Below the pieces are notes generated by a model. That model searched no databases and was not told where the DNA came from. It saw only the letters and a list, made by a program, of their open reading frames with translations. From assembly GCF_001005315.1 (NCBI RefSeq), contig NZ_LBMG01000028.1, forward strand, positions 1-64,000: DNA of 64,000 nt, given 5' to 3'. Each line of letters opens with the position of its first letter. Positions within the stretch are counted from its first letter, which is position 1. Positions 8,916 through 51,132 of the stretch are shown here, piece after piece. The DNA is from Kordia jejudonensis. GTDB taxonomy: Bacteria; Bacteroidota; Bacteroidia; Flavobacteriales; Flavobacteriaceae. The position numbers were made by a program, and so were the translations under genes.

Positions 8916-8980
8916 TCATTTCGGTCAGGCTATCTGCTATATCTTTTTTCAAAAAAGAAAAAAGGATGCCGCGGCTATCC
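8916..8980 (-). other. Structured leader-like element upstream of the methyltransferase
   Basis: Read on the minus strand: a GC-rich hairpin GGAT-A-GCCGCGGC-ATCC (plus 8964-8980), then an interrupted T-run (8951-8963), then GATATAGCAGATAGCC. This is unusually GC-rich for the locus and looks like an intrinsic terminator sitting between a promoter-like box (9021-9028) and the methyltransferase start at 8888. It could be a short attenuated leader or a dispersed repeat. Confidence 0.5.
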
Positions 8981-9020
8981 TTAACCCAGTTTTCTATTAA
9001 ACAATATGGTTAACAGACTG

Positions 9021-34069: not shown

Positions 34070-34070
34070 T

Positions 34071-34146
34071 GAAACTCAACTTTGTGAAGTTCTACGAACT
34101 CACACAAAGTTGTTAGTTGAATTAAATCCCGTGGTATCACAGGATC
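34071..34146. repeat. Two-hairpin structured repeat, copy 1
   Basis: Outer stem CAACTTTGTG (34077-34086) / CACAAAGTTG (34103-34112); inside it AGTTC-TAC-GAACT; then the unpaired TTAGTTGAA (34113-34121); then a second hairpin ATCCCGTG / CACAGGAT (34126-34145). Three further copies at 50.8-51.1 kb share the layout but differ in stem sequence, with compensating changes. Confidence 0.8.
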
Positions 34147-34167
34147 TTGATTATTTAATTTTTTCGA

Positions 34168-34212
34168 TAAAAACCGTTTCATCTGCCATAATGAAGCGGT
34201 TTTGTGTTTTTT
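34168..34212 (+). terminator. Intrinsic terminator after aceA
   Basis: AAAACCG-TTTCAT / ATGAAG-CGGTTTT imperfect stem with an eight-base loop, then TTTTTT at 34207-34212 after a short GTG. Confidence 0.7.
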
Positions 34213-34280
34213 ATAAATTGAAAGATTGAAGGATTCTAAAGCTAGCGAAAGTTTACAACTCAACAAACAAGCTCAAATAA

Positions 34281-34862
34281 TTCGTGTATTCGTGACAAAA
34301 ACCAATTTTAAATGTAAAAATGTTTTTGAATAACAAATAAGGAATAACGAATAACGAACAGAAAAAACCTGTATTGAGATATGAGAATTGAGTATTGAGA
34401 AATATTCCGAACAATCAACGAATTACTTAACCTTTACAACTTCGAGTGAAATTTCCCGAGAAATTTTGTATCGAGAAGTACCAAAAAAAGTTGATATTTT
34501 AAATGCTAAATGTTGAACGCTGAATGTTAAATTAAAAAGTACAATTTAACCCAAGACCCAAGACCCAAGACCCAAGACCCAAAGACCCAAAGACCAAAAA
34601 TAAATATTCGTGTATTCGTGACAAAAACCAATTTTAAATGCCAAATTAAAAACGGTACAATTTAAGTTAAGCAACTCAACAACTTAACAACTCCACAACT
34701 TCACAACTTCACAAGAACAAAGAGTAAAATTATAAATGTTGAATGCTGAATTTTAAATTAAAAAGTACAATTTAACCTAAAACCTAAAACCTAAAACCTA
34801 AAACCCAAAACCCAAAATCCAAGATCCAAGATCCAAGACCCAATAACAAAGACCCAAAATCC
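34281..34862. repeat. Imperfect tandem duplication ending in CCCAAGA / CCTAAAA microsatellites
   Basis: The 34070-34947 spacer has no gene. A 34-base stretch beginning TTCGTGTATTCGTGACAAAA occurs at 34281-34314 and 34607-34640. A second shared stretch (GTTGAA-GCTGAA, then TTAAATTAAAAAGTACAATT) occurs at 34511-34549 and 34738-34773. Each half ends in an octamer/heptamer array: CCCAAGA at 34548-34598 and CCTAAAA passing into CCCAAAA and TCCAAGA at 34772-34862. Confidence 0.8.
34439..34480. repeat. CTTCTCGATACAA palindromic repeat, copy 1 (inverted)
   Basis: Opens ACTTCGAGTG and closes TATCGAGAAGT, with inner arms AAATTTC / GAAATTT. It is the reverse-oriented relative of copies at 45580 and 61960, whose inner arms are ATTTTC / GAAAAT. 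Confidence 0.75.
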
Positions 34863-34947
34863 ATTCTCGTATCTTTAAAAATAAATTTTTCTATTAAAAT
34901 GAACCTTTTCCACTTTTTCACGTCTCTATTATAGGCGGAAGTTTTTT

Positions 34948-35487
34948 ATGCATAAAAAAAATCACATATCAGATGCAACTCTTGTAACACAATACAAAGC
35001 TGGCGACAAAAAAGCATTAGCACTTTTGGTAAAGCGTTTTCATAAAACATTTTGCAAGCATGCGTATTGGACTGTAAAAGATACCGAAGTTGCCAAAGAT
35101 ATTGCACAAGACAGTTGGAAATTGATTATAGATAAAGTGACTACTTTACAAGATGCTGAACGTTTTAAAAGTTGGGCATTGCGCATTGTGCATCGAAAAG
35201 CAATCGATTACACACGTACAATTGCTAAACAACAGCAACAACAAAGTGATTACACGGTAACCAAATCGATTCGTGATATTCCGTCTACAGATACAACGCT
35301 GGCAAAGCAACAATTGAAGCAAGCAATTACAAAGTTGTCTGTAAGTCAACAACAAATAATTCGGCTGTTTTATGTAGATGCATATTCTTTAAAAGAAATT
35401 TCAAACACTTTACGAATATCTGTCGGAACAGTAAAATCACGTTTGTATCACGCACGAGAACAATTAAAAAAACAATTAAAAAAATAG
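34948..35487 (+). CDS. RNA polymerase sigma factor, ECF-like sigma-70 family
   Basis: 179 residues. Region 2 (LVKRFHKTFCKHAYWTVKD, then EVAKDIAQDSWKLIIDKV) and region 4 (AITKLSVSQQQIIRLFYVDAYSLKEISNTL, RISVGTVKSRLYHAREQLKKQL) are both clear; no region 1.1 or 3. An alternative sigma factor, probably held by the membrane protein encoded six bases downstream. Confidence 0.9.
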   Translation: MHKKNHISDATLVTQYKAGDKKALALLVKRFHKTFCKHAYWTVKDTEVAKDIAQDSWKLIIDKVTTLQDAERFKSWALRIVHRKAIDYTRTIAKQQQQQSDYTVTKSIRDIPSTDTTLAKQQLKQAITKLSVSQQQIIRLFYVDAYSLKEISNTLRISVGTVKSRLYHAREQLKKQLKK

Positions 35488-35492
35488 AAATT

Positions 35493-35879
35493 ATGAGCAC
35501 ATTAGAAGATATTGATACGTTAATTAAAGAAACATTAACCGAAGAAGAATCAAAATTTTATGACGAATTAGACGAGCAAGGTCTTTTTGGATCTATCGGA
35601 AGTATTTTTAAAGGAAAATTAGGATGGTTAGCCGTCATTATGAATATCGTAAATCTAGGCGTTTTTGGATTCATGATTTATTGCTTCATTCAATTTTTTA
35701 ACGTGACCGAAACAAACGAACTGATACAATGGGGATTGGGAATTGTCATAAGTGCCATGTTTATGTCCATGATAAAATTATACGCTTGGATGCAAATGGA
35801 CAAACGTGCCATTTTACGAGAAATGAAACGATTAGAGTTACAAGTATCGTCATTAGCGGCTAAAATATCAGAGCAGTGA
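35493..35879 (+). CDS. DUF6768-like two-helix membrane protein, likely sigma-factor partner
   Basis: 128 residues: an acidic cytoplasmic N-terminus (LIKETLTEEESKFYDELDEQG), two membrane helices (about 46-68 and 78-98), and a C-terminal coiled-coil segment (LREMKRLELQVSSLAAKISEQ). Genes of this type follow ECF sigma genes in Flavobacteriaceae. An anti-sigma role is inferred from position, not shown by a known domain. Confidence 0.75.
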   Translation: MSTLEDIDTLIKETLTEEESKFYDELDEQGLFGSIGSIFKGKLGWLAVIMNIVNLGVFGFMIYCFIQFFNVTETNELIQWGLGIVISAMFMSMIKLYAWMQMDKRAILREMKRLELQVSSLAAKISEQ

Positions 35880-36128
35880 TAATTGGTAAGTGAGTTGTGA
35901 GTTCTTTTCTGAATCATCAAATACAAAATAATGAAGTTAGAAAATAGAATAGAGCGACAAGATATTGAGGTTGAATCTTTAGTTAAAAGTTAATAAACAA
36001 AGTAACAGATTAACAACTCACAATTGACAAATCCACAAAAGTTGTATTAAGAAATGCTATAAATAAGGTTGTTATCTAAAATCAAATACAATTAATTTTA
36101 ATTCGAATTGAATATTTAGTATTTTGCA
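35880..36128. other. Intergenic stretch upstream of the rocD leader
   Basis: AT-rich, no gene or clear repeat. A sequence close to a -7 box (GTATTTTG) ends near 36126, just before a foldable leader. Confidence 0.4.
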
Positions 36129-36193
36129 ACTCTCTAGGGATGATTTCTCTCCCACGCTGAATTTTCGATTCCTCGAAAGGATAAAGGTAGAGT
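36129..36193 (+). other. Candidate structured leader of rocD (three-way junction)
   Basis: Closing stem CTCTA (36132-36136) / TAGAG (36188-36192); helix 1 GGGA / TCCC (36137-36153); helix 2 TTTCGA-TTCC-TCGAAA (36163-36178). Single-stranded joiners include CACGCTGAA and GGATAAAGG. It sits in the roughly 100-nt leader of the ornithine transaminase gene. I cannot match it to a known riboswitch class. Confidence 0.45.
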
Positions 36194-36233
36194 AGGAATG
36201 GTTATTTTATGTATCATTTAAAACTTTATTAAA

Positions 36234-37511
36234 ATGGCTGTTTTAGAACAATTAACATCTCAGCAAGCAATTGAATTAGAAGACAAGTATGGAGCGCACA
36301 ACTATCATCCACTTCCAGTGGTTTTGAGTAGAGGAGAAGGCGTTTATGTTTGGGACGTAGAAGGAAAAAAGTATTACGACTTTCTTTCTGCTTACTCTGC
36401 AGTAAATCAAGGACATTGTCATCCGAAAATTGTAAATGCGATGGTGTCTCAAGCACAAACATTAACCTTGACGTCTCGTGCATTTTACAATGATATGTTA
36501 GGACGTTATGAAAAATTTGCTTCGGAATATTTTAATTTCGATAAGCTTTTACCAATGAATACAGGAGCTGAAGCGGTAGAAACTGCTTTAAAAATCTGTA
36601 GAAAATGGGCATATGAGAAAAAAGGAATCGCGGAAAACGAAGCGGAAATCATCGTTTGCGAAAACAACTTCCACGGACGAACTACGACAATTATTTCATT
36701 TTCAAATGATCCTGTAGCGCGTAAAAATTTCGGACCGTATACGGACGGATTTATCAAAATTGCCTATGACAATATTGAAGCGTTAGAAGAAGCATTAGAA
36801 AACAATCCTAATGTTGGTGGATTCATGGTAGAGCCAATTCAGGGGGAAGCTGGAGTATATGTTCCATCTGAGGGATATCTCGCAAAAGCGAAAGCATTAT
36901 GCGAAAAACACAATGTATTATTCATTGCAGACGAAGTACAAACAGGAATTGCACGTACAGGACGTTTGTTGGCTACTTGCGGAAACTGCTCGTGTGAGAA
37001 GAAAAACTGTAGCGGAACTCCAGAGGTAAAACCAGATGTATTAATCTTAGGAAAAGCATTGTCTGGCGGCGCATATCCAGTATCAGCTGTATTAGCAGAT
37101 GATCATATCATGAGCGTTATTCGTCCAGGAAATCACGGATCAACTTTTGGAGGAAATCCTGTTGCAGCCGCAGTTGCCATGGCAGCTTTAGAAGTTGTAG
37201 AAGAGGAAGCGTTGGCAGAAAATGCCTTCCAATTGGGAGAATTATTCAGAAGCGAATTAGACAAATATATTCAAACAAGTAACATTGTAAACTTAGTACG
37301 TGGAAAAGGATTGTTGAATGCAATCGTGATTAACGATACAGAAGATAGTGATACGGCTTGGAACATTTGTATGGCGTTAAAAAACAATGGATTGTTAGCA
37401 AAACCAACACATGGAAACATTATTCGTTTTGCACCACCATTAGTAATGACGCAAGATGAATTGCTCGATTGTGTAGCAATTATTACAAAAACACTTAAAG
37501 AATTTGAATAG
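36234..37511 (+). CDS. rocD: Ornithine-oxo-acid transaminase
   Basis: 425 residues, class III PLP aminotransferase. Converts ornithine plus 2-oxoglutarate to glutamate semialdehyde. PLP lysine is Lys274 in [23 protein letters not shown] and EPIQGEAGV, then [12 protein letters not shown], are class-specific. A cysteine-rich insertion after GRLLAT reads Cys249-x2-Cys252-x-Cys254-x4-Cys259, which could bind a metal; typical enzymes lack it. The next gene begins on the last base of the stop codon. Confidence 0.93.
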
Positions 37512-37981
37512 TGCCTTTAAAAAAACAAGAAGATAGTTCCGTATTTGATAATTTTGAGTTGCGACTCAATGAACAGTCAAAGAAGTTTCTGCGTGAAACC
37601 GCAAGATGGGCATTTATCCTATCTATCATAGGATTTATAGTCATCGGACTATTTGTATTTGTGGCTGTATTTTTTGGCGTTATGTTTTCTGCATTCAATT
37701 CAAATGCAAATCCTTTTCAACAACAAGGATTGTCTGGCGGATTTATCGGAATTGTATATTTTGTATTAGCAATTTTGTATTTCTTTCCTGTAATGTATTT
37801 GTATCGCTTTTCGCGAAGAATGAAAGCTGCATTGGCAGAAAAAAGTACGGACGGATTAACGAGAGCTTTTTCAAGTTTAAAATCGCATTATAAATTCCTA
37901 GGAATTGTAATATTATCAATTGTTGGAATTTACGCTTTAGTTTTTGTATTCGCTATTATAGCTGGCATAGCAGGAATATAA
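37511..37981 (+). CDS. DUF5362-like membrane protein
   Basis: 156 residues from a GTG that overlaps the rocD stop by one base. Three membrane helices (about 33-57, 78-98, 130-154) separated by a basic loop (YRFSRRMKAALAEK). Resembles DUF5362 proteins of Bacteroidota. Co-transcribed with rocD and ended by the hairpin at 38007. Confidence 0.75.
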   Translation: MPLKKQEDSSVFDNFELRLNEQSKKFLRETARWAFILSIIGFIVIGLFVFVAVFFGVMFSAFNSNANPFQQQGLSGGFIGIVYFVLAILYFFPVMYLYRFSRRMKAALAEKSTDGLTRAFSSLKSHYKFLGIVILSIVGIYALVFVFAIIAGIAGI

Positions 37982-38006
37982 GCACTGTAAAACAAGAAGA
38001 TATAGA

Positions 38007-38037
38007 AAAGCGGATGTACATGGTACATCCGCTTTTT
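38007..38037. terminator. Bidirectional intrinsic terminator
   Basis: Perfect stem AAAAGCGGATGTAC / GTACATCCGCTTTT with a three-base centre; T-rich on the plus-strand side. Separates the rocD operon from convergent minus-strand genes. Confidence 0.92.
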
Positions 38038-38060
38038 ATGTATTAAGTACATTGTACTAT

Positions 38061-38381
38061 TTACTGATTGTTGATTTGTTCCATCATATCTCTCCATTGT
38101 TGTTGCGATTCTTCCCATCCGCCAGTTGCGATAGAGTAGATAGCCCATAAAAAGTTAAGAACGTTAATAATTGTAACAATCAAAGCTACAATCTTTGCGG
38201 TATTCATTGCATTGATATTTCCATCATATTCATCAGGATTTGCAGTAGCATCTTTTATCTTTTTGTCAGCAATAAAATATGCGGGTCCAGAAAGTAAGAA
38301 TCCTAAACCTGCAAAGCAGCAGCAAAGAAATCCGATGACCGATAAGACATATACTAAAGTTGGATTGAGTTGTTTTTTCAT
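38061..38381 (-). CDS. CCC-motif membrane protein
   Basis: 106 residues with two to three membrane helices. The first contains GFLCCCFAGLGFLLSGPAYF, the triple-Cys motif that names a small Bacteroidota family. A polar loop (KKIKDATANPDEYDGNINAM) is followed by a second helix and a Gln-rich tail. Often encoded next to DUF2752 proteins, as here. Confidence 0.8.
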   Translation of the reverse strand: MKKQLNPTLVYVLSVIGFLCCCFAGLGFLLSGPAYFIADKKIKDATANPDEYDGNINAMNTAKIVALIVTIINVLNFLWAIYSIATGGWEESQQQWRDMMEQINNQ

Positions 38382-38401
38382 GTGTGTTAAGGTTTGATTA
38401 T

Positions 38402-38713
38402 TTAAATGTATGATAATTTTTTGACAATAAAACTGATAATGATGATGACCACATTTGCAATACCTAAAATATTTACCAGTTTTTGCGAACCTTTAAATTT
38501 AAAAAAGATATTGATACCAACGAAGATAAAAAATAAAATTAGTGTATAAATGGCTGGATACATTTTAAACGCTTCTATAAATTCTCCTCGTGAAATTAAT
38601 GCTAATGAGCGCTGAATTCCGCACCCAAAACAGTCAACTCCTAAATATTGTTTAGAAAAACACGGAAGCATATATTCTTCAACTTGTACTAAAAATATAA
38701 GCGCACTGTGCAT
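38402..38713 (-). CDS. DUF2752 family membrane protein
   Basis: 103 residues, two membrane helices after a cysteine-rich segment: CFSKQYLGVDCFGCGIQRSLALISRGEF carries the DUF2752 CPGCG-like core. 20 bases separate it from the CCC-motif gene downstream, so they form one operon. Function unknown. Confidence 0.82.
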   Translation of the reverse strand: MHSALIFLVQVEEYMLPCFSKQYLGVDCFGCGIQRSLALISRGEFIEAFKMYPAIYTLILFFIFVGINIFFKFKGSQKLVNILGIANVVIIIISFIVKKLSYI

Positions 38714-39052
38714 TTCTGTAATTATTTTAACAAATATAAAGGATTCTATTCTCTCTATTTTACTGTAACATCAGTAGTTTTTTAAAACAAAACGTTACAT
38801 AAAATATTAATTTTTTAAAAATATGTAAAATGCATTGGTATTTCAAACATCTTTGATAAAGAACTCGTTTAAATTTTTTTAATTTGCTAAAAAATTACTC
38901 TTTTCAGGCCTGTTTTTATCTTTTTTTCGTTCCGTAGCGCTGCTATGAAACTCAAAAAAGCTGTCAACAGAACTTAAAACTGCTAATTTTCGCCTAAATC
39001 CGAAAAGTTTAAATGAGTTCAAAATAAAAATACCAATTGCCAAAGAAAATAT
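38714..39052. other. Intergenic stretch, no feature found
   Basis: AT-rich spacer between divergent genes. No repeat, hairpin or plausible gene was seen; an open frame at 38879-39091 lacks coding character. Confidence 0.4.
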
Positions 39053-39060
39053 TATTTTTG
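39053..39060 (+). promoter_or_regulatory. -7 promoter box of the Smr operon
   Basis: TATTTTTG, 20 bases before the GTG at 39081. TTG at 39037-39039 is too close (13 bp) to be the -33 element. Confidence 0.5.
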
Positions 39061-39080
39061 AAGAATTAAAAAAATACACA

Positions 39081-39320
39081 GTGAAGTTCAAACACGCAAC
39101 AAAAGTTTATTTTCTCATGGTATTCCTTGGTGCAGGAACCTTGCTTTTTAGAGATAACATTCAAGGAGAAGGACAAATTTTAGTAACTATAATTGCGTTG
39201 GTTTTAATGATGTTTGGGTTGTATAAAGTAACTTCGAAGCAATTATCAAACAAACCAAAGAACTATGATACTGAAGAGTATTTTAATAGAGAAAAATACG
39301 AGCAACAAGAAGAAGAATGA
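39081..39320 (+). CDS. Small two-helix membrane protein upstream of the Smr gene
   Basis: 79 residues from a GTG start. Two membrane helices (about 10-24 and 33-52) and an acidic tail (YDTEEYFNREKYEQQEEE). The stop overlaps the Smr gene's ATG by four bases, so translation is coupled. No family name. Confidence 0.7.
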   Translation: MKFKHATKVYFLMVFLGAGTLLFRDNIQGEGQILVTIIALVLMMFGLYKVTSKQLSNKPKNYDTEEYFNREKYEQQEEE

Positions 39321-39874
39321 ATTTTAAAGTAGGCGATACGGTAGAAGCAATTGATGATGTTATCCGTGGAATTGTTCAATCCATTGATGGAAACGTTATT
39401 ACAGTAGAAACAGATGAAGGGTTTCCTCTTACATTTGAAGCATCTGAATTGGTAATAGTAAATTCGGATGAAATTGCATTGAATTTATCTTATCAAAAAA
39501 TTCATAATGCGATTCAAGAAAAAGAAGCCGCAAAGAAGCCCAAACGTGTTTTAGAAAAGTCAAAAAAAGACCGTGTAGAAACGATTATGGAAGTCGATTT
39601 ACACATTCATCAGCTTACAAATTCATACAAAGGCATGAACAATTATGACATGCTTACACTACAAACCGATACGGCAAAACGTCAGTTAGAATTTGCCATA
39701 CGCAAACGAATTCCGAAAGTTGTTTTTATTCACGGAGTTGGCGCGGGCGTTCTCAAAGAAGAATTATACTATTTATTTCGTCAATACGACAATGTAAAAT
39801 ACTACGACGCTAACTATCAAAAATATGGTTTAGGAGCTACAGAAGTGTACATTTATCAAAATCCTAAAGTATAA
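39317..39874 (+). CDS. DUF2027/Smr-domain protein
   Basis: 185 residues. N-terminal small beta domain (FKVGDTVEAIDDVIRGIVQSIDGN), basic linker, then a C-terminal Smr domain: EVDLHIHQL (the DLH motif) and VFIHGVGAGVLKEEL (the HGxG motif). Smr domains bind and can nick DNA or RNA, and newer work links them to collided ribosomes. This short version lacks a MutS ATPase. Cytoplasmic. Confidence 0.87.
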   Translation: MNFKVGDTVEAIDDVIRGIVQSIDGNVITVETDEGFPLTFEASELVIVNSDEIALNLSYQKIHNAIQEKEAAKKPKRVLEKSKKDRVETIMEVDLHIHQLTNSYKGMNNYDMLTLQTDTAKRQLEFAIRKRIPKVVFIHGVGAGVLKEELYYLFRQYDNVKYYDANYQKYGLGATEVYIYQNPKV

Positions 39875-39916
39875 TTAGCGCAATGTACGATTTCAGCTAT
39901 CGATTATAAATATTTC

Positions 39917-39967
39917 TAAAACCTAAAACCTAAAACCTAAAACCTAGAAAACCAAAACCCATCACCC
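39917..39967. repeat. CCTAAAA heptamer microsatellite
   Basis: Four tandem ACCTAAA units followed by decayed ACCAAAACCC units. Same family as the arrays at 12309, 34772 and 45646. Confidence 0.85.
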
Positions 39968-39973
39968 AAAAAA

Positions 39974-40507
39974 CTATTCCGCAGGAGTTACAATAAAGCC
40001 GTAATCAAAAATACCTTCATAGGTTATACTTTCTCCGGCATCGTTAGAAAATACAATGTTTTCAAACGTAATTTCATGTCTGTAATCAGTCACAATTGTA
40101 GGATCAACAGCATCAAATGCGGCGGCAGTAGTAACTACTTTTACAATTCCGTTATTAGCTGTATATTCTAAATTTACCTCTACATCTACAGGTGGCAATT
40201 GATCACAAAAATAACTGCTAGTTACTGTCGTGTTAAAACCTCTATAATAAGCGTTTACGCTAGTATTTGTCAAGTTGCCTTCTCTTGGTTCTTCATCTTC
40301 CGTAATTGTATTTACAATTAAAGTACTTGGAATTTCCAAAATCAACGCTTCGGTATCATCAATCTTAAAAAGCAAGGTTACTCCAGCTTCCAAATCACAA
40401 GCAGACACGGCTGCATCACTTGTAAAATCAATTTCCTCCAAAGCTAAATCTCCATCATCACAACCAAAAGCAAATACCAAGATAAAAAGTAACCATAATT
40501 TTTTCAT
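39974..40507 (-). CDS. Lipoprotein of unknown function
   Basis: 177 residues from the ATG at 40507. Lipobox in LVFAFGCDDGD (Cys at residue 16). Acidic and rich in predicted strands (DVEVNLEYTANNGIVKVVTTAA). It resembles small periplasmic or surface lipoproteins of Flavobacteriaceae but I cannot assign a family. Stands alone. Confidence 0.7.
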   Translation of the reverse strand: MKKLWLLFILVFAFGCDDGDLALEEIDFTSDAAVSACDLEAGVTLLFKIDDTEALILEIPSTLIVNTITEDEEPREGNLTNTSVNAYYRGFNTTVTSSYFCDQLPPVDVEVNLEYTANNGIVKVVTTAAAFDAVDPTIVTDYRHEITFENIVFSNDAGESITYEGIFDYGFIVTPAE

Positions 40508-40649
40508 AGAAAGTACCAATTAAGAAATTCGTATATACAGGCAAAAGTATAAGAAAACTCTATTTATAACGAAACTTATTGTAAATAATTTTATTTAAAC
40601 TATTTTTGCTCATCTTTATTTCAATCAACTGTATTTATAAAAGAAACGA

Positions 40650-41798
40650 ATGAGGAATGTATATTTTGATAGTGCAGCTACAACGCAAATTCGACCAGAA
40701 GTTGTAGATCGCATTAAAATCGCTTTAGAAGAAAATTACGGAAATCCGTCGTCTACGCATAGTTTTGGTCGTTCTTCAAAAACACTCATCGAAACTGCTC
40801 GTAAAACCATCGCTAAATATCTAAATGCTTCGCCACAGGAAATTATTTTCACTTCGGGTGGAACAGAAGCTGATAACATGGCATTGCGTTGCTCTGTTCG
40901 TGATTTGGGCGTAACTACCATCATTACATCGCCTATAGAACACCATGCGGTTTTGCATACAGTAGAACAATTGCGTGTAGAAAGTGATATTAAAGTTACG
41001 TACGTAAAACTACAATCATGTGGAACGCCTGATTATGACGATTTAGAAGCTTTGTTAAAAGCAGATAATTCTAAAAAATTAGTCAGTTTAATGCACGTCA
41101 ATAACGAAATTGGAAACATTCTTGATGCTGATCGTGTTGGAAATCTGTGTAAAGAATACGGCGCTTTATTTCATTCAGATACGGTACAATCTATTGGACA
41201 TTTTGAATGGGACGTACAAAAAACACATGTCGATTTCCTAGCAGCGGCGGCACATAAATTTCACGGACCAAAAGGAATTGGTTTTGCTTTTATTCGAAAA
41301 GATTCTGGTTTAAAACCGTTAATCTTTGGAGGATCGCAAGAACGTGGATTTCGTGCAGGAACCGAAGCTGTTCATAATGTAGTTGGGTTAGAAGAAGCAT
41401 TCAAACTGGCATATGATAATCTAGAAGAAGAAAAAACATATGTTGAAGGTTTAAAAACCTATTTCATGGCAGAATTAAAGAAAGTAATGCCAAATGCAAA
41501 ATTTAATGGAAACTGTCACGAAACAACAAAAAGCACCTATACATTAGTCAATGTTTGTTTGCCTTTTGATCAGCAAAAAGCACTGATGTTACTTTTTCAT
41601 ATGGATTTAAAAGGAATTGCTTGTTCCAAAGGAAGTGCTTGCCAATCGGGAAGTAGCAAAGGTTCACACGTATTACGAGCAATTTTAAGTAGCGAAGATT
41701 TAGAAAAACCATCGTTGCGTTTCTCTTTCTCAAAATTCAATACCAAAGAAGAAATTGATTACATCATAACAGTATTACACGAATATGCAAATTCGTAA
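40650..41798 (+). CDS. Cysteine desulfurase, NifS/IscS family
   Basis: 382 residues, PLP enzyme that removes sulfur from cysteine for Fe-S clusters or tRNA thiolation. NPSSTHSFGR, ITSPIEHHAV, the PLP lysine Lys203 in AAHKFHGPKG, and Cys325 and Cys331 in CSKGSACQSG, one of which is the persulfide cysteine. Short active loop resembles group II-like or NifS-type enzymes. No scaffold gene is adjacent. Own terminator. Confidence 0.9.
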   Translation: MRNVYFDSAATTQIRPEVVDRIKIALEENYGNPSSTHSFGRSSKTLIETARKTIAKYLNASPQEIIFTSGGTEADNMALRCSVRDLGVTTIITSPIEHHAVLHTVEQLRVESDIKVTYVKLQSCGTPDYDDLEALLKADNSKKLVSLMHVNNEIGNILDADRVGNLCKEYGALFHSDTVQSIGHFEWDVQKTHVDFLAAAAHKFHGPKGIGFAFIRKDSGLKPLIFGGSQERGFRAGTEAVHNVVGLEEAFKLAYDNLEEEKTYVEGLKTYFMAELKKVMPNAKFNGNCHETTKSTYTLVNVCLPFDQQKALMLLFHMDLKGIACSKGSACQSGSSKGSHVLRAILSSEDLEKPSLRFSFSKFNTKEEIDYIITVLHEYANS

Positions 41799-41821
41799 TT
41801 TACATTGAAAATAATATATAC

Positions 41822-41856
41822 AAAAGCGAGTTCACGATACGAACTCGCTTTTTTTA
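41822..41856 (+). terminator. Intrinsic terminator
   Basis: AAAAGCGAGTTC / GAACTCGCTTTT stem, seven-base loop, then further T. Confidence 0.93.
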
Positions 41857-41943
41857 TATCAAAACATTGTGTCGTTATCTTTCAAATTATCTTTATATTG
41901 AAAGCGATTTAAAATGTGACCATTTTGAAACTATAAAACCCGC

Positions 41944-43776: not shown

Positions 43777-44488
43777 ACTCTCCATCATCATTCCTGTTTA
43801 CAATGAAGCGGCTACAGTGCGGTTGATTTTAGATAAGATAAACGCTGTTCAACTGATACATGATATTAAAAAAGAATTGATCATTGTGGACGATGGCTCG
43901 AAGGATGATTCCAAACAAATTGTACGAGCGTTTATGGAAGCACATCCTACGTTAGACATACAATACCATGAACATACAAAGAATCAGGGAAAAGGTGCTT
44001 CTATTCAAACAGGAATTTCGTTGGCTACGGGCGAATATTTAATCATTCAAGATGCAGATTTAGAATACGATCCGGAAGAATACAATATATTGTTAGCACC
44101 TATATTGGAAGACGTTGCAGACATTGTATACGGTTCACGATTTTTGGACAGACAGAGAAAACGGAACTCATATTTTTGGCACTACATGGCGAATAAGTTT
44201 CTAACTTTTCTATCGAACATCTTCTCAAATTTGAAGCTGACAGATATGGAAACTTGTTACAAACTATTCAACACAAAAATCATTCAATCGATCAAATTGA
44301 CAGAAAAACGTTTTGGTTTTGAACCTGAAATCACGGCGAAAATTTCAAGAATAAAAGACATTCGTATACACGAAGTTGCCATTTCCTATTACAGTAGACC
44401 TTATGATGAAGGAAAAAAAATTGGTTGGAAAGATGGAGTTAGAGCTATCTATTGTATTCTAAAATACGGATTGTTCAAATTGAATTAA
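43763..44488 (+). CDS. GT2-family glycosyltransferase, dolichol-phosphate mannosyltransferase-like
   Basis: 241 residues, no membrane helix. GT-A fold: SIIIPVYNEAATV, LIIVDDGSKDDS, and the metal-binding QDADLEYDPEEY; YGSRFLDRQRKRNSYFWHYMAN is typical of DPM1-like enzymes. It likely makes polyprenyl-phosphate sugar used by the membrane transferase whose gene it overlaps. Confidence 0.9.
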   Translation: MKLTKLSIIIPVYNEAATVRLILDKINAVQLIHDIKKELIIVDDGSKDDSKQIVRAFMEAHPTLDIQYHEHTKNQGKGASIQTGISLATGEYLIIQDADLEYDPEEYNILLAPILEDVADIVYGSRFLDRQRKRNSYFWHYMANKFLTFLSNIFSNLKLTDMETCYKLFNTKIIQSIKLTEKRFGFEPEITAKISRIKDIRIHEVAISYYSRPYDEGKKIGWKDGVRAIYCILKYGLFKLN

Positions 44489-44499
44489 TGTTAAAAAAT

Positions 44500-44530
44500 A
44501 AAAGCGAATTCATTACAAATTCGCTTTTTT
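44500..44530. terminator. Bidirectional intrinsic terminator
   Basis: AAAGCGAATT / AATTCGCTTT stem with a seven-base loop; T-run on the plus strand, AT-rich on the minus. Serves the GT operon and the convergent RiPP gene. Confidence 0.88.
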
Positions 44531-44548
44531 GCTTTCTTCAAGTAGGAA

Positions 44549-44713
44549 TTAACAAAACCACCACCAACCTGTAAAACAAGCGCACGATGGCGGATCAAAA
44601 ATTCCTGTAACACAATGATTTGCTGCTGATCCACCTTTTGAACTACTGACTTTGAAATCAGAAATCACTTTTTTGTTCAATGTAAGATCTTTCAATAACT
44701 TCTTTTTTTTCAT
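44549..44713 (-). CDS. RiPP precursor, class I lanthipeptide-like
   Basis: 54 residues: basic start and leader MKKKKLLKDLTLNKKVISDF, then SSSKGG as probable processing site, then a core with four Cys, Ser/Thr and the end CFTGWWWFC. The leader LNKKxIS is the shared signature of Bacteroidota class I lanthipeptide and GG-type precursors. No lanthionine synthetase, protease or exporter is nearby. It is the first of five precursors with this leader in the window and is transcribed alone. Too short for a standard gene finder. Confidence 0.75.
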   Translation of the reverse strand: MKKKKLLKDLTLNKKVISDFKVSSSKGGSAANHCVTGIFDPPSCACFTGWWWFC

Positions 44714-44911
44714 GACCTAAAGTTTTGGTTAATTACGGTAATTTACTTTAAATCAGAATATTGTGAAATGATGAATGCGTAAAGTCTACGTTTCAGTGCG
44801 TAAATGAAGCAAACAAATGAGTGAAGTGTATTTTGTATATGTATGAAAAGTAACGTCTGTTCGATATAATATCAATAACACGTTTCTTCTTTTCCGCAAT
44901 GTTGCAGTTGC

Positions 44912-45559
44912 CTAATTTTTTTCCTCATACGGAAACTTTCTACTGGCTTGTCGCATCATTTTAGCAATAATGGCAGATGTATTTTTACCCGATTTACGAT
45001 TGATGATTTTTTCGTAGCGCCACAGCAATTTCCCTGTACTCTTATCACTTAATTTAATGATAATTTTTCCATAATCAGATTTTCCTTTGAGGAAGGTAAT
45101 CAAATCAAAAGAAGTATCAACCTCTTTAGATAAAAGCATGCGTGAAGTTAATGAACCGCTAATAATCGCATCAACTTTTAATAACTTACACAATTCTTGC
45201 GGTGTGTAAATATCGATATTTTCATCTGTGATTCCTTCTTTTTTTAAGATACGATTCGTCGTATTGATATCTTGAAAGTTAATTTTAAGCTTCTTTTTGC
45301 GTTTTCTGTTTAAGAAATAACTCTCCAACGCTTCTTGTACCGCAATACCTTCTTGTTGTTCAAATTTTTCCAACTGCGCATCACTATACTTTTCTTGTGC
45401 CGCTTTTAAATTGAGTTTTGCTTGAAACGGTAGAATCGCAATAATTTGATGATCTTCTGAAAGTTCTTCAAACGTATCGCTTACATATATCTTTTTTTGC
45501 GCATTACTTTGTTGTATACCAACAAATAACAATAGTAAAATAACAACTAACTTCTTCAT
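44912..45559 (-). CDS. Secreted protein with a CsgG-like pattern
   Basis: 215 residues with a signal peptide ending QSNAQ. IAILPFQAKLN, a mid segment LCKLLKVDAIISGSLTS, then IIIKLSDKSTGKLLWRYEK recall the CsgG/GNA1162-type periplasmic fold (sensing 'kvDAIISG', then strand-turn with SGKLLW). No lipobox, so it is a soluble periplasmic or surface protein. Function unknown. Same strand as, and 104 bp after, the TonB receptor gene. Confidence 0.6.
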   Translation of the reverse strand: MKKLVVILLLLFVGIQQSNAQKKIYVSDTFEELSEDHQIIAILPFQAKLNLKAAQEKYSDAQLEKFEQQEGIAVQEALESYFLNRKRKKKLKINFQDINTTNRILKKEGITDENIDIYTPQELCKLLKVDAIISGSLTSRMLLSKEVDTSFDLITFLKGKSDYGKIIIKLSDKSTGKLLWRYEKIINRKSGKNTSAIIAKMMRQASRKFPYEEKN

Positions 45560-45579
45560 TATAATCTTTATTCTAAAAT

Positions 45580-45622
45580 ACTTCTCGATACAATTTTCTC
45601 TAGAAAATCATTCGAAGTGACG
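45580..45622. repeat. CTTCTCGATACAA palindromic repeat, copy 2
   Basis: ACTTCTCGATACAATTTTCT, two bases, then AGAAAATCATTCGAAGTGAC. Outer arms ACTTC / GAAGT and inner arms ATTTTCT / AGAAAAT pair. Confidence 0.8.
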
Positions 45623-45645
45623 TTTAAGTTTTTAATTTTCATCTA

Positions 45646-45663
45646 ACACCCAACACCCAACAC
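45646..45663. repeat. AACACCC short tandem repeat
   Basis: Two to three AACACCC units immediately before the end of the TonB receptor gene. Same family as the other heptamer arrays. Confidence 0.7.
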
Positions 45664-48135
45664 CTAAAAACGCATTCCCAACTTCACATTAAACACACGA
45701 CCTGTTAAGAAATTTGGGATTCCAAACTGACGTTTTGTATACACATCACGAACCCATGTATTGGTAATTGAATTTTGAACATCAAACACATTAAAAATCT
45801 CAAAACCAACATTTAAATCTTTAAATACAGATTTCCAGCCTGTATCAAATTGTCTGTCTTTGTCCACTAAAACATACGAAAACCCTACGTCAGCACGTTT
45901 ATAATCAGGTAATTGACTCTGAAATTGGTATGGATCAGAATAACTCGGCGAACCACCTGGCAATCCTGTATTGTATGTTAAGTTGAGGTATAATTTTAAG
46001 TTTGGAATCTTTCGCATATAATCTTGAAATAAAACTGCAAACTTCAAACGCTGATCGGTTGGTCTGCTAATATATCCGCGATTATTGATGTTTTCTTCCG
46101 TTTTTAAATAACCAAAACTTACCCAACTTTCTGTTCCTGGAACAAATTCTCCATTCAAACGCATGTCTAAACCATACGCATACGCATCGGCAACATTATC
46201 AGCTCGGTAACGAATACGAACGTTTTCAATGGTATAGGCATTGACATCAGATAAACTTTTATAATACGCTTCGGTTGTCAACTTAAACGGACGATCCCAA
46301 AGTTTGAAACTGTAATCATTTCCTAACACTACATGAATCGATTGTTGTGCTTTAACATTTGGATTTACAACACCATCTGGACCACGTAATTCTCTGTAAA
46401 ATGGTGGCTGATGGTAAAATCCGCCAGACAAACGGAACAACATGTCTTTTTCCCAGTTTGGTTTGATAGCTACTTGCGCTCTTGGACTCACAACAGCTTG
46501 TGTATTGCTTTCAATTCCATCGCCATTAATTGTCCAACTGTGCGCACGAACACCAACATTTGTCCAAACTTCATGTTCGCCAATCATAGATCGTTTGCTC
46601 CATTGAGCGAATCCTGAAACACGATCAATTTGAGTATTATTTCGAGCACGAACTGTTTGAAAAGGTTCTATTGGACCTTCATACGGCGTATATGGCTGAT
46701 TGTTTGAAAATTGTGGCAATGGCGGACGAATTGAAAATCCAGCAGAATCAATCACTTCCCATTCAATCAATCGATCACGAATGTCTTCATGTGTGTATTT
46801 AACTCCCCAATCGATTTGGTTTTCTTCATCATTAATTTTGTAACTTCCTTTGTGTTCTGCATTAAAAATGAGCGCATCTAAGTCGTTTCGCCCATGATTT
46901 AATTGCGAACCAATTCCTTCCGTAAATTCTACATTTCCTAAATCTTCATCGCCAATATTTGTATTAACTTCTCCCAAACGGTATTCTGCCAAAATATCAA
47001 AATGCTCTTGTTCTGTAGTGTGATATGCTGACGCGATAAATTTTAATGTTACATCATCATTGAGGTAATAATTAGCTTTCAAAGCTCCAAAATACGTTCG
47101 GTAACGATCTTCTTCACGACCTTGGTAAAACACCAATAACGCAATTGGATCTTGAAGTGTTCCAAAATTGGTTTGGCGTGTTAGCGGTTCGTAATCATAA
47201 TCGTTAAATGAAATATTTCCTAAGAAATTCAAATCGAACTTATCTGAAAATTTATACGTTACATAGGTTTGAAAATCTGTAAAACGCGGTCTAAAGTTCG
47301 TTTCTGTTTGTTTGCTATTTACCAACAAGCTGTTATCTCTAAAACGTACACCAGAAATCGTTGAGAACTTACTATCATTGCTAACTGTCTGAATAGAAGC
47401 GCTTCCGCCAAGTAAACTCAAATTTAAACTTCCACCAAAACGAGAAGGTCTTTTATACGTAATGTCCAATACGGAAGATAGTTTGTCGCCATATTTTGCT
47501 TGAAATCCTCCCGCAGAGAAATCTACATTTTGTACCATATCGGTATTTACAAAACTCAATCCTTCTTGCTGTCCTGAACGAATTAAAAACGGACGATATA
47601 CTTCAATTTCGTTTACATATACCAAGTTTTCATCATAATTTCCACCTCGAACAGAATATTGTGTACTCAATTCGTTGTTGTTATTTACACCTGGAAAAGA
47701 CATAATGATATTCTCCACTCCAGGATTGGCACTTGGAATCAGGCGGACAGTTTCTGCCGAAATTGTTTCAATACCTTGTACAGCTTTCCGCTTTCGCGAA
47801 TCGATAATTACGGTACCAATTTGTTCCGTACTTTCACTCATTACAGGATTAAACTCGTAATCTTCTCCATTTTTTAACTGAATGGTCACTGTAATTGTTT
47901 TATGTGAAATGTGTGAAAACGTAAGGGTAATTTTCTCATCGGCAGGAATTACAATTTTGAAAAAACCGTTCTTATTTGTTTTCGTTCCCGAATCTACAGA
48001 AGTGCTAATATTTACATTTTCAATTGGTGCATTATTCTTATCTAAAATAACTCCTCTAATGGTTGCTGTTTGCGCTATAATGAAGTTCGCAGCAAAGAGA
48101 AAGCTTAAGAAAAGGATGGATCGTATAGGTTTCAA
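45664..48135 (-). CDS. TonB-dependent outer-membrane receptor
   Basis: 823 residues. Signal peptide to about residue 21 (ANFIIAQ), CarboxypepD-regulatory domain (TIRGVILDKNNAPIENVNIS, residues 24-105), plug domain (SANPGVENIIMSFPGVNNNNELSTQYSVRGGNYDENLVYVNEI split over 135-180), then a 22-strand barrel ending VFNVKLGMRF. Imports an unknown ligand. No SusD-type partner is adjacent, so it is not an obvious polysaccharide locus. The M23 peptidase gene precedes it by eleven bases on the same strand. Confidence 0.92.
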   Translation of the reverse strand: MKPIRSILFLSFLFAANFIIAQTATIRGVILDKNNAPIENVNISTSVDSGTKTNKNGFFKIVIPADEKITLTFSHISHKTITVTIQLKNGEDYEFNPVMSESTEQIGTVIIDSRKRKAVQGIETISAETVRLIPSANPGVENIIMSFPGVNNNNELSTQYSVRGGNYDENLVYVNEIEVYRPFLIRSGQQEGLSFVNTDMVQNVDFSAGGFQAKYGDKLSSVLDITYKRPSRFGGSLNLSLLGGSASIQTVSNDSKFSTISGVRFRDNSLLVNSKQTETNFRPRFTDFQTYVTYKFSDKFDLNFLGNISFNDYDYEPLTRQTNFGTLQDPIALLVFYQGREEDRYRTYFGALKANYYLNDDVTLKFIASAYHTTEQEHFDILAEYRLGEVNTNIGDEDLGNVEFTEGIGSQLNHGRNDLDALIFNAEHKGSYKINDEENQIDWGVKYTHEDIRDRLIEWEVIDSAGFSIRPPLPQFSNNQPYTPYEGPIEPFQTVRARNNTQIDRVSGFAQWSKRSMIGEHEVWTNVGVRAHSWTINGDGIESNTQAVVSPRAQVAIKPNWEKDMLFRLSGGFYHQPPFYRELRGPDGVVNPNVKAQQSIHVVLGNDYSFKLWDRPFKLTTEAYYKSLSDVNAYTIENVRIRYRADNVADAYAYGLDMRLNGEFVPGTESWVSFGYLKTEENINNRGYISRPTDQRLKFAVLFQDYMRKIPNLKLYLNLTYNTGLPGGSPSYSDPYQFQSQLPDYKRADVGFSYVLVDKDRQFDTGWKSVFKDLNVGFEIFNVFDVQNSITNTWVRDVYTKRQFGIPNFLTGRVFNVKLGMRF

Positions 48136-48146
48136 TATCGTGAGTT

Positions 48147-49841
48147 TTAATTTTTTCTATAAAAAGTGCTCGTAAAAGTAGTATTATTTCCAACATTATC
48201 AGTAACGATCAACTTTAAATTATGTTTTGCTTCGGTAAAAGTAATATCGTTAAAATCGTATGTCAGCATGCCTTTTTTGGCATCATATTCAAATAAAACC
48301 CATGTTCCGTTAATTGTTCCACGATAACTGCGTACGGAAGAAAGATCATCTGTAACTTTTATTTTTAAATACTTTTTATTCGAAATCCACTTGTCTTTAG
48401 CAAAATTTACGGGTTTCACTTTGGGTGGAATGGTGTCTTTGGCTAAAAAATATGTTCCTAAATTCTTCGTACTTGTCGTAAATTTTGTGCCTTTCTTTTT
48501 TGTGCTGCTGTAGGATGGTTTCTTTTTACTATTTAAACTAGCAATGAACATTTTTTTACGTTCAGCTTCCGTATATTTTGAAACATCAAAGGTAATGACG
48601 AAGTTTTTGTGCGCAGCTACTTTATCATTATGAATTTTATAACGTCCTTTTTTATCTTTCGACAAATCGAAATAAAAATCTTCATAAAAGGTCTGTTTCG
48701 GAATGTATACACTAACATCGTCTTTTCTCAACGTATGTTCTGAATTTCGTGTAATTAAATTTTCGGTCACAATTTCTTTCTTCTTTTGTGTCACTTTTTG
48801 CTTCTTACCAACAACGGGAATAGTAATCGTAGTTGTATTGTCTTTAAAATCTTTGACTTTGAGCACAATAGTATATTCCTTTCCTTCTTCAATAGAAACT
48901 TTTCCCCTATTAATAACATCTTTATAAATGCTCAACTTATTTGCCGCTGTAACAAAGCAACGTTGCACGCGTTGTTTCATATTTTTAAAGCGCGAATAAT
49001 CGATTAATGTATTGATGTATCTCGATTCGCCAAAGGAGAACTTTTTAAAATCGTAACTAAAGTTTTTAATACCGTTCACAAAACTTTCCAATTGGTAAAT
49101 TCCGTTTTTATTAAAAGCCAAATCTTGTCGATCGTATGAATTGATGCCCAAGCCAATTTCGCCAGAAGCGAAAACTTTTGCCGCGACATAACTATTTTTT
49201 TCTTTTCCCTTTTTCAATTGTAATTGTACAACTTTATTGGAAGAATTAATTTGTGCAGAATCTGACAATGCATAAGCAAATACACCATTTACCGTTGGAT
49301 GATGCGAATCTTTCACGTCAATCCCAAACAACATTGGATTCATCGGTTTAGAAGCGGCATCGCGAATTTCGAAGTGTAAATGTGGTCCGCCAGAAGAGCC
49401 ACTATTTCCTGAATAGGCAATAACTTCTCCTTTTTTGACAACCAATTCTCCTGCTTTTGGATACAGTTGAATTTCGTAACGTTCTTTCGCGTATTGTTGT
49501 TTCTTTAAATAGGCTTCTAACTTTGGAGCCAACTTTTTCAAATGCGCATATACTGAAGTATAACCGTTTGTATGTGTAATGTATAGCGCTTTTCCAAATC
49601 CCCAATGTTGAATTTTTATACGCGACACATGTCCATCGCCAATCGCAAACACTTCAAAACCTTCTTTCTGTTTCGTTTTAATATCAATTCCTGAATGAAA
49701 ATGATTGCTTCGCAACTCTCCAAATGTTCCAGATAATATAATAGGAATATCTAACGGCGATCTAAAATCGTTTTTAGGAATGGTATTTTGAGAAAGGGCA
49801 ATTGAAAAGAAAAATAAAAAAATAAAAAACAGTCTGTACAT
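48147..49841 (-). CDS. M23-family peptidase (LytM domain), periplasmic
   Basis: 564 residues with a signal peptide ending IALSQ. LytM domain at residues 25-170: zinc ligands in NHFHSGIDI (HxxxD) and HLHFEIRD (HxH), plus GNSGSSGGPHLHF. The remainder is strand-rich with Ig-like segments. It cleaves or binds peptidoglycan cross-links. Located directly upstream of a TonB-dependent receptor, probably one operon. Confidence 0.9.
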   Translation of the reverse strand: MYRLFFIFLFFFSIALSQNTIPKNDFRSPLDIPIILSGTFGELRSNHFHSGIDIKTKQKEGFEVFAIGDGHVSRIKIQHWGFGKALYITHTNGYTSVYAHLKKLAPKLEAYLKKQQYAKERYEIQLYPKAGELVVKKGEVIAYSGNSGSSGGPHLHFEIRDAASKPMNPMLFGIDVKDSHHPTVNGVFAYALSDSAQINSSNKVVQLQLKKGKEKNSYVAAKVFASGEIGLGINSYDRQDLAFNKNGIYQLESFVNGIKNFSYDFKKFSFGESRYINTLIDYSRFKNMKQRVQRCFVTAANKLSIYKDVINRGKVSIEEGKEYTIVLKVKDFKDNTTTITIPVVGKKQKVTQKKKEIVTENLITRNSEHTLRKDDVSVYIPKQTFYEDFYFDLSKDKKGRYKIHNDKVAAHKNFVITFDVSKYTEAERKKMFIASLNSKKKPSYSSTKKKGTKFTTSTKNLGTYFLAKDTIPPKVKPVNFAKDKWISNKKYLKIKVTDDLSSVRSYRGTINGTWVLFEYDAKKGMLTYDFNDITFTEAKHNLKLIVTDNVGNNTTFTSTFYRKN

Positions 49842-50025
49842 AAATCAAAAATGCGTTTGAAAAGCTAAAATAGCTAATACTTAGTTAATTCGGAATCTTT
49901 AAATTCAAAAACTGCACCAAAAAATATGTAAAACTTAAAGTAATACTTTAAATAATAGTCAAAACCCTTGCGAACTAATTTTATGAATGCTAAATTTGTA
50001 AACATATGCATTGAATATAAATGTA

Positions 50026-50316
50026 ATGAGTAGTACTTTGAAAATCGTTGATTCTCTTGAGAATAGAGTGAGCAAATTGCTTCATAAGTTAGAAGTTTTG
50101 GAGCAAAAAAATCAGAAACTTCATCAAGAATTAACATCAGCAACTCAAAATGCACAGCGTTTACAACAAGAAATCTCAGGATGGGAAGAAAAGTATCAAA
50201 CGTTAAAAATTGCAAATTCGATGCTTGGCAGTGATAACAATAAAAAAGAAGCTAAGCTTAAAATAAATACACTAATTCGGGAAATTGATCATTGTATTGC
50301 ACAATTAGCCGAATAA
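50026..50316 (+). CDS. Small coiled-coil protein upstream of zapA
   Basis: 96 residues from the ATG at 50026 (an upstream in-frame TTG is not needed). Almost entirely heptad repeats (VDSLENRVSKLLHKLEVLEQ, ELTSATQNAQRLQQEI), so a parallel coiled coil. It precedes zapA by 18 bases; position and shape suggest a cell-division accessory protein similar in role to ZapB, but that is inference. Confidence 0.75.
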   Translation: MSSTLKIVDSLENRVSKLLHKLEVLEQKNQKLHQELTSATQNAQRLQQEISGWEEKYQTLKIANSMLGSDNNKKEAKLKINTLIREIDHCIAQLAE

Positions 50317-50334
50317 AAGATAGTTCTTTACACT

Positions 50335-50628
50335 ATGGAAAATAAGCTCAAAATAAAGCTTTCTATTGCGGATAGAGTATATCCTTTAACCATTCCAGCA
50401 AGCCAAGAAGAAGGTTTGCGAAAAGCGGCTAAGAAAATAGAAGCTATGATAAAACAATTTGAGCAAAGCTATGCCGTTAGAGATAAGCAGGATGTTTTGG
50501 CAATGTGTGCCTTGCAATTTGCAGCTCAGGTAGAGCAAAAAGCTATAGATAAAGACAGCAATCAAACCGCATTAGAAGAAAGATTGAAAGCGCTGGACGA
50601 ATTGCTAAAAGCGCAGCTTAGTTCATAA
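50335..50628 (+). CDS. zapA: Cell division protein ZapA
   Basis: 97 residues. N-terminal LKIKLSIADRVYPLTIPASQEEGLRKAAKKIE-type ZapA globular domain (split here over residues 4-38) and a C-terminal helix (VLAMCALQFAAQVEQKAID). Bundles FtsZ filaments at the division ring. Followed by 6S RNA, as in many bacteria. Confidence 0.9.
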   Translation: MENKLKIKLSIADRVYPLTIPASQEEGLRKAAKKIEAMIKQFEQSYAVRDKQDVLAMCALQFAAQVEQKAIDKDSNQTALEERLKALDELLKAQLSS

Positions 50629-50654
50629 GTTCTGTAAAATATAAATAGGTTACT

Positions 50655-50843
50655 GCCTACATTGGTTTTTATTTTTGATAAACTCAACGTTAATATAATT
50701 AAAAAGAGTGAGTCATGGTTGTAAGAGCATGCTGTTAATATTGAATTTATTCTTTATTTGGACAGATCCTTGATCAATCTGTTAGCTCTAAACTTGTTTT
50801 TTTGGAGTTTATACAAAACTCTAATCAATGTAGGCTTTTTTTT
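50655..50843 (+). ncRNA. ssrS: 6S RNA, flavobacterial type
   Basis: The ends pair perfectly: GCCTACATTG (50655-50664) with CAATGTAGGC (50826-50835), followed by eight T as terminator. The enclosed 160 nt contain further long-range complementary segments such as AACTTG-TTTT and CTCTAAACTTG / GAGTTTATAC, consistent with a rod with a central bubble. It lies between zapA and rny, the usual location for Bacteroidota 6S RNA (Rfam has a 6S-Flavo family). It binds the housekeeping RNA polymerase. Confidence 0.78.
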
Positions 50844-50844
50844 G

Positions 50845-51087
50845 TGAAACTCAGTTTTGAAAAGCTCGTAGAGCGCATACAAAACTGTTAGTTGAACAAA
50901 TCCCGTTGCAGAACGGGATCTCACAACTTACTACTAATAGTTTTTTAGCTTCGAAAGAAATTACAAAACTGCTAGTTGAACAAATCCCGTTGCAGAACGG
51001 GATCTAAAAACAGTTTGACTCAAATTTTGAAAAGCTGTAAGCGAATTCAAAACTGTTAGTTAAACAAATCCCGTTGCAAAACGGACT
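50845..51087. repeat. Two-hairpin structured repeat, copies 2-4 in tandem
   Basis: Copy 2 (50845-50921): TGAAACTCA, stem CAGTTTTG / CAAAACTG (50852-50887) enclosing GCTC-GTA-GAGC, TTAGTTGAA, hairpin ATCCCGTT-GCAG-AACGGGAT (50900-50919). Copy 3 (50939-51004): weaker first stem, same TAGTTGAA and the identical second hairpin (50984-51003). Copy 4 (51012-51087): inner GCT-GTA-AGC, CAAAACTG, TTAGTTAAA, ATCCCGTT-GCAA-AACGGA. The array ends 46 bases before rny, so it may be in its leader. Confidence 0.82.
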
Positions 51088-51132
51088 TTAAGGTTTTTAC
51101 CTTACTAACTAATACATAATTAAGATCGATAG

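Follow-up and report, generated by a model that had tools for sequence, protein, structure and literature searches.

A two-hairpin element behind aceA and 6S RNA

The window analysed here is a 64,000-nucleotide stretch of the Kordia jejudonensis genome (contig NZ_LBMG01000028.1, positions 1 to 64,000). It carries four copies of a short element built of two hairpins, one after aceA and three ahead of rny, which is where a preliminary description had placed them. The stems and their compensatory changes likewise agreed with that description. Our analysis confirmed that the observation is real and also understated, as the copies belong to a dispersed mobile-repeat family. This family consists of small mobile DNA repeats dispersed across marine Bacteroidota. 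The copies and their immediate surroundings are as follows (bits and E values from the covariance model described below, unless stated otherwise):

34066..34149, + strand: element copy 1, directly after aceA (86.2 bits, E 9.4e-16)
34067..34124, + strand: hairpin 1 of copy 1, with outer stem, GA/GA internal loop, TT bulge and inner hairpin (alignment columns 2-59)
34126..34145, + strand: hairpin 2 of copy 1, ATCCCGTG..CACAGGAT (sequence and alignment)
50682..50810, + strand: 6S-Flavo RNA (RF01685), upstream of the array (94 bits against a gathering score of 85)
50805..50844, + strand: 3' arm of a long inverted repeat with T-run, terminator-like, followed by the array (inverted repeat; sequence)
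50841..50923, + strand: element copy 2, intact, directly behind the T-run after 6S RNA (95.7 bits, E 5.8e-18)
50842..50899, + strand: hairpin 1 of copy 2 (sequence and alignment)
50900..50919, + strand: hairpin 2 of copy 2, ATCCCGTTGCAGAACGGGAT (sequence and alignment)
50960..51007, + strand: element copy 3, a direct repeat with most of the 5' arm lost and the 3' arm and hairpin 2 kept (34.8 bits, E 7.8e-4)
51010..51091, + strand: element copy 4, degraded (43.8 bits, E 6.4e-6)

Hairpin 1 consists, in this order, of an outer stem, a GA/GA loop, a TT bulge on the 3' side, the main stem, an AA/GCA loop and a small inner hairpin. Hairpin 2 follows directly with eight base pairs, after which usually comes CT. 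The outer stem, in which TTAGT-GA-AACT pairs with AGTT-GA-ACTAA, had been missed before: TGAAACTC and TTAGTTGAA had been taken to be unpaired, whereas an alignment of 16 copies shows them paired to one another, which lengthens hairpin 1 outwards. Five of the 16 have A-T in place of G-C at pair 4-57 of this stem. In copies abutting a gene, the stop codon forms part of the outer stem. The first bases of copy 1, TTAA, overlap that of aceA, and the TAA ending the gene faces TTA on the 3' side; at another gene, two orthologous copies from different species combine TAA with AATTA (L059) and TAG with AACTA (L100). The count of four needs qualification: all four copies are present, but only two are intact because copy 3 lacks most of its 5' arm and copy 4 is degraded.

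Two kinds of variant were seen at other loci. Other repeats are inserted at the apex of the inner hairpin in L068, L151 and L164, with an enlargement to 103-108 nt. Shortened versions (L029 1493-1545, L155, L038) have a simple first hairpin, for example TTAGTAAAACTCAATACTAAAAATTGAGTTTTACTAA, and then a similar second hairpin.

Dispersal and movement of the family

The covariance model (R1) was built from aligned copies and used with a threshold of E<0.01. It gave 67 matches in the window's own genome and matches in 10 of 11 Kordia genomes. In a survey of 99 genomes, own genome included, the family was found in 20 genomes and 11 of 74 genera. All copy numbers are lower bounds, as 150 candidates were scored per genome search and 46 in the survey. 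The search thus added many copies, within Kordia and across genera, to the four known from the preliminary description. A strict DNA pattern met at least 115 stretches in named genomes elsewhere in Bacteroidota, the matches listed being from Arenibacter, Gelidibacter, Aquimarina, Polaribacter, Salegentibacter, Psychroflexus, Draconibacterium, a Salinivirgaceae and a Chlorobiota metagenome-assembled genome, and others. Viral contigs gave no match to one strict exact pattern, phages none with copy 2 of the window as query, and plasmids none with one Arenibacter copy as query. The string GTTGAACTAATCC was not met in the literature searched, and publications on Flavobacteriaceae REPs, REPIN/RAYT, MITEs, Kordia repeats and IS605 derivatives included none on this family, as judged by title and start of abstract.

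Within the own Kordia genome, the units also form arrays of up to 15 with periods from 77 to about 117 bp. Two Kordia arrays (L024, C57:11288-12437; L006, C145:1965-2299) end in a unit without hairpin 2 and have a full 5' arm only in the first unit; in an Arenibacter array (L196), all five units have full left ends.

The preliminary description had left the choice between a structured RNA and a REP-like mobile element. The mobile half is borne out by the dispersal of the copies, by identical copies with unlike upstream flanks and by a fixed target in Arenibacter. Gelidibacter salicanalis carries an identical 85-nt unit at five places (L177, L184, L250:6053, L255, L256) and, one base off, at a sixth, with upstream flanks unlike one another. 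Five of these were followed downstream; four, including the one-base variant, are alike up to the right end GAGGTTGTTCATT, and at L255 this right end is present behind an N-interrupted stretch.

One Arenibacter genome yielded 56 right ends, 30 of which were fetched and read (the other 26 were not read). All 30 have a left end, and the whole element spans 102-247 bp. On the left, 29 are flanked by TTTA, a word found at about 1% of positions in these loci, and one by CTTA. TTTTAT at the right end is not independent evidence because it was part of the search pattern. None of the 30 copies shows a terminal inverted repeat: their ends match at no more than 8 of 15 bases. The right-end hairpin GGT-TTAAT-ACC is short and was judged by eye only. 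One copy (L308, 1338-1519) has a near-identical stretch of about 33 bp on each side, longer than the usual TTTAT, and degenerate IS200-like genes in Arenibacter (L325, L329, L333) are without such ends.

The orientation of the Arenibacter elements was compared with third-codon GC skew, taking the element strand to be the G-rich strand. The G-rich strand has the sense of the leading strand, which is the rule behind reading the skew as insertion into the lagging-strand template. Orientation and skew agreed in 32 of the 40 right ends on six sampled contigs (two-sided binomial p 0.0002; the remaining 16 are on contigs not sampled). The fixed target, the missing terminal inverted repeat and the skew-following orientation suggest a non-autonomous single-stranded-DNA element of IS200/IS605 or REP-like type. 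Insertion into single-stranded DNA at replication forks, with comparable marks, is described for IS200/IS605 (PMC6006769). The left flank in Kordia is merely T-rich (27 TTTT and 10 TATT among 72).

Inheritance and stem change in Kordia

The Kordia copies are old, and most look inherited in place. Orthologous sites were located by their flanks, and identities and curated ortholog counts come from 16 hand-curated groups freed of decayed and array-internal members and of duplicate loci. Among 46 curated members, mean identity was 0.817 to orthologs versus 0.734 to within-genome paralogs; the best ortholog was closer than the best paralog in 29, less close in 16 and tied in one. Forty of 72 lead copies lie directly behind an intrinsic terminator, compared to 78 of 1438 T-rich control positions. 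The strand is that of the upstream gene for 60 of 71 Kordia copies, eight copies abut a stop codon, and two orthologs stand directly behind RNase P RNA (RF00010; L005, L089). In a set of 76 copies mostly from other genera, the orientation to neighbours looks random (24 divergent, 20 convergent, 16 and 11 co-directional, 5 at an edge).

At the 6S RNA site, the element, a remnant or a plausible remnant occurs in all 11 Kordia genomes, the remnants being judged by eye and that in G005 being the least clear. The element is intact in G000, G004, G006 and G009, and decayed or interrupted in G001, G002, G003, G005, G007, G008 and G010. Genomes with an intact copy at this site also have the most matches genome-wide (37 to 46 versus 0 to 27), a hint, from one site and uncorrected for kinship, that preservation may need a factor acting in trans. 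G007, which has no model match, shows nothing recognisable as a copy at loci a, e and f. At the aceA site, read in seven genomes, the full element is found only in G000 and G008, and a shorter hairpin pair or fragments in G002, G003 and G010.

Covariation of the stems was scored in 16 hand-picked copies, all from the K. jejudonensis genome (alignment A1). In 20 of 30 pairs both sides change with pairing kept. Of all cells, 93.9% are paired; shuffled alignments average 81.5%, and sliding the partners gives 32-42%. None of 500 shuffles matched the observed value on four of the five measures, covariation score included; the fifth, the number of further pair types, was equalled by 80 of 500. As same-genome copies share ancestry beyond what shuffles correct, the comparison of orthologs is the better test. 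The covariation seen in the preliminary description held.

The manner of change argues for a structure that is read as DNA. In 28 better-preserved ortholog rows (alignment A5; decayed rows such as L151, L156 and L164 left out), 164 cells are double changes and 10 are wobbles, with 29 of 840 broken or gapped. In 51 curated ortholog comparisons, we counted 209 Watson-Crick-to-Watson-Crick changes, 34 wobble, 66 broken and 1168 same; 50 of the 209 are of a type unable to pass through G-U. The uncurated count was 327 double, 93 wobble, 256 broken and 1750 same, at least one of its groups (L102:1623, L416) mixing non-orthologous copies and others holding second copies of one locus. One ortholog pair, L060/L102, differs in 13 of 29 pairs with none broken and none wobble. 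The 6S-Flavo RNA upstream of the array served as RNA control: across the 11 Kordia genomes, its predicted structure shows 7 double versus 16 wobble changes and 6 broken, from few variable pairs. Stem evolution through G-U pairs is a trend of RNA genes and not a strict rule. Stem changes that are almost wholly Watson-Crick to Watson-Crick in well-preserved orthologs, unlike those of 6S RNA, favour DNA.

Double changes were adjacent 44 times, compared to 28.6 in shuffles, a value reached by none of 2000, in a test that ignores the unequal divergence of ortholog pairs. Alignments A2 and A3 were fitted to the model, A3 keeping 150 of 159 matches. Over all matches, G-T mismatches outnumber A-C mismatches by 140 to 68 in Kordia and by 63 to 23 in the named-genome set, which suggests that the described strand is the folding strand, with the model scoring somewhat favouring such an excess. 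The constancy of the asymmetric loops suggests that something reads them. Template switching yields coupled changes without intermediates and has precedent in RNA genes, according to one study (PMC8794818).

Explanations and relation to known systems

We consider it probable that the family represents small, non-autonomous mobile elements whose moving form is single-stranded DNA. One strand can fold into hairpin 1 and at once into hairpin 2. An HUH/Y1-type enzyme supplied in trans would recognise the hairpins and, in the manner of IS200/IS605 transposases, place this strand in the lagging-strand template. The Kordia copies are old residents, a majority standing behind intrinsic terminators and a few at stop codons. 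Preserved copies stay paired through coupled Watson-Crick changes, likely caused by selection on the DNA hairpin together with template-switch repair of one arm from the other.

Several results weigh against this proposal. No transposase could be tied to the element among 58 Y1-transposase loci fetched with about 1.5 kb on each side, some overlapping: a clear copy lies near one and a weak match (E 0.0097) near another. The PF01797 profile, searched in the own genome, 19 relatives, 5 genomes reached through loci and the 99 genomes, gave no hit in the element-bearing G002, G004, G008, G009 and G059; three genomes with 27-46 element matches have no hit. In favour of the proposal, Y1 genes are commoner with the element (15 of 20 element-bearing versus 25 of 79 other genomes), in a count that ignores relatedness. 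None of the 30 Arenibacter right ends read, of 56, belongs to an autonomous copy, all being short. Eight of the 40 right ends oppose the skew, all on contigs C3 and C6, and the skew in Kordia is too noisy for a strand test, with a sign that looks opposite in G004. Decay at the 6S site in 7 of 11 Kordia genomes means that the element is not kept everywhere, and the 16 of 46 members with a closer paralog make some replacement possible. The G-T excess over A-C (140 versus 68) would fit an RNA as well.

Among neighbours of the element at 80 loci (2.4-8 kb each), the largest gene family recurs in five, and none of the 25 largest families appeared recombinase-like by eye. In L133 and L336, from two element-carrying genera, Y1 genes adjoin a gene that is presumably hemF; a single open frame runs through both genes in L133.

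It is also conceivable, though doubtful, that in some Kordia species a formerly mobile hairpin was taken over by the host. Folded DNA would be inherited behind terminators and read by a DNA-binding or HUH-type protein missed by the Y1 profile, with the stems maintained by template switching and the asymmetric loops by selection.

The alternative that the element is a structured RNA, a 3' end or read-through element selected at each site whose two hairpins protect, process or terminate the transcript, draws on the placement of Kordia copies on the strand of the upstream gene (60 of 71), behind terminators (40 of 72, against 78 of 1438 control sites) and after 6S and RNase P RNA, and on the G-T excess on the described strand. 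It is nevertheless unlikely: G-U is skipped far more than in 6S RNA (164:10 versus 7:16, in a control with few variable pairs), the 76 copies mostly from other genera show no orientation preference, and the window copies drew no Rfam family at gathering score and nothing convincing at lower scores. The RNA half of the preliminary suggestion is thus disfavoured. The REP version of that suggestion, with a RAYT/HUH transposase and matching hairpins, is unsupported: there is no GTAG or CGTC tag, the 58 Y1 loci lack element copies apart from the two exceptions above, and three element-rich genomes have no PF01797 hit. A REP mobilised by a RAYT (TnpA_REP), as in Proteobacteria, is accordingly rather improbable, even though the hairpins are short and present in tens of copies, Y1 genes accompany the element, the own genome has two PF01797 genes, and Quentin et al. 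describe atypical structures beside Bacteroidetes subclass 2.6 genes (PMC6006769). Both Kordia genes lie between other repeats, several element-rich genomes lack a PF01797 gene, and RAYT was rejected as mobiliser for want of linkage in the 58 Y1 loci scanned. The two RAYT-like genes (L031 in C146, L032 in C207; about 190-200 aa) are flanked by repeats of their own (GCTAGCGCGAGTT.. and ..CACGATTATATCGTG..) that do not resemble the element.

Inert relics that stay paired solely through template-switch repair in replication, free of selection, would account for double changes without wobble intermediates that are often adjacent (44 versus 28.6), with the precedent in RNA genes (PMC8794818). This seems quite improbable, as GA/GA, AA/GCA, the TT bulge and AGTT are constant and arm-to-arm copying would erase such asymmetry; copies also decay in some species, so that preservation is not automatic, and the adjacency test ignores the greater divergence of some ortholog pairs. 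We give least weight to the very improbable reading that the element is a recombination site which a tyrosine recombinase recognises in folded single-stranded form. Integron attC sites carry boxes of the form RYYYAAC ... GTTRRRY. The element resembles them in that its paired arms vary and its unpaired bases stay constant, some copies stand right at stop codons, and GTTGAAC fits the second box, but its 5' partner GTGAAAC fails the first; no neighbouring gene family exceeds 5 of 80 loci, where no search aimed at integrases was made.

Short hairpin repeats are common in bacteria. In the literature searched, we met no other family in which comparable coupled stem change can be traced from site to site across a genus. 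With arms that change in step and unpaired parts that stay constant, this family provides a natural test of the movement and maintenance of DNA hairpins. Two questions become testable: whether pairing is upheld by selection or by template switching, and what moves hairpin repeats where a genome has no recognisable Y1 transposase. It also illustrates that strong covariation alone is no proof of an RNA at work.

Among known systems, Rfam families share the covarying two-stem structure, but the only ones at gathering score in the window are 6S-Flavo and Flavo-1, both outside the copies (Flavo-1 RNA, RF01705, at 8919-8991 on the - strand, 49.7 bits). Integron attC sites share variable complementary arms and constant unpaired bases, and differ in that one of their two boxes fails in the element and no cassettes were noticed. 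REP elements and REPINs with RAYT are likewise short intergenic hairpins in many copies, single and clustered. They differ from the element, which has two unlike tandem hairpins, no flanking RAYT, and stems that are not conserved between copies of the Kordia genome. REP/RAYT hairpins bear a GTAG or CGTC tag at the foot (PMC3733652); the element consensus has no such unpaired tag, its TTAG being paired. Measured against the IS200/IS605 rules (PMC6006769), the element differs in having no TnpA in or beside the copies read, a long hairpin 1 with several internal loops, and a left TTAG that is not fixed but covaries with its partner on the 3' side of hairpin 1. With IS200/IS605 and their non-autonomous derivatives it shares hairpins near the ends, the lack of terminal inverted repeats and, as seen in Arenibacter, a fixed short left target; its orientation, with 32 of 40 Arenibacter right ends in agreement, may follow replication-strand skew as theirs does.

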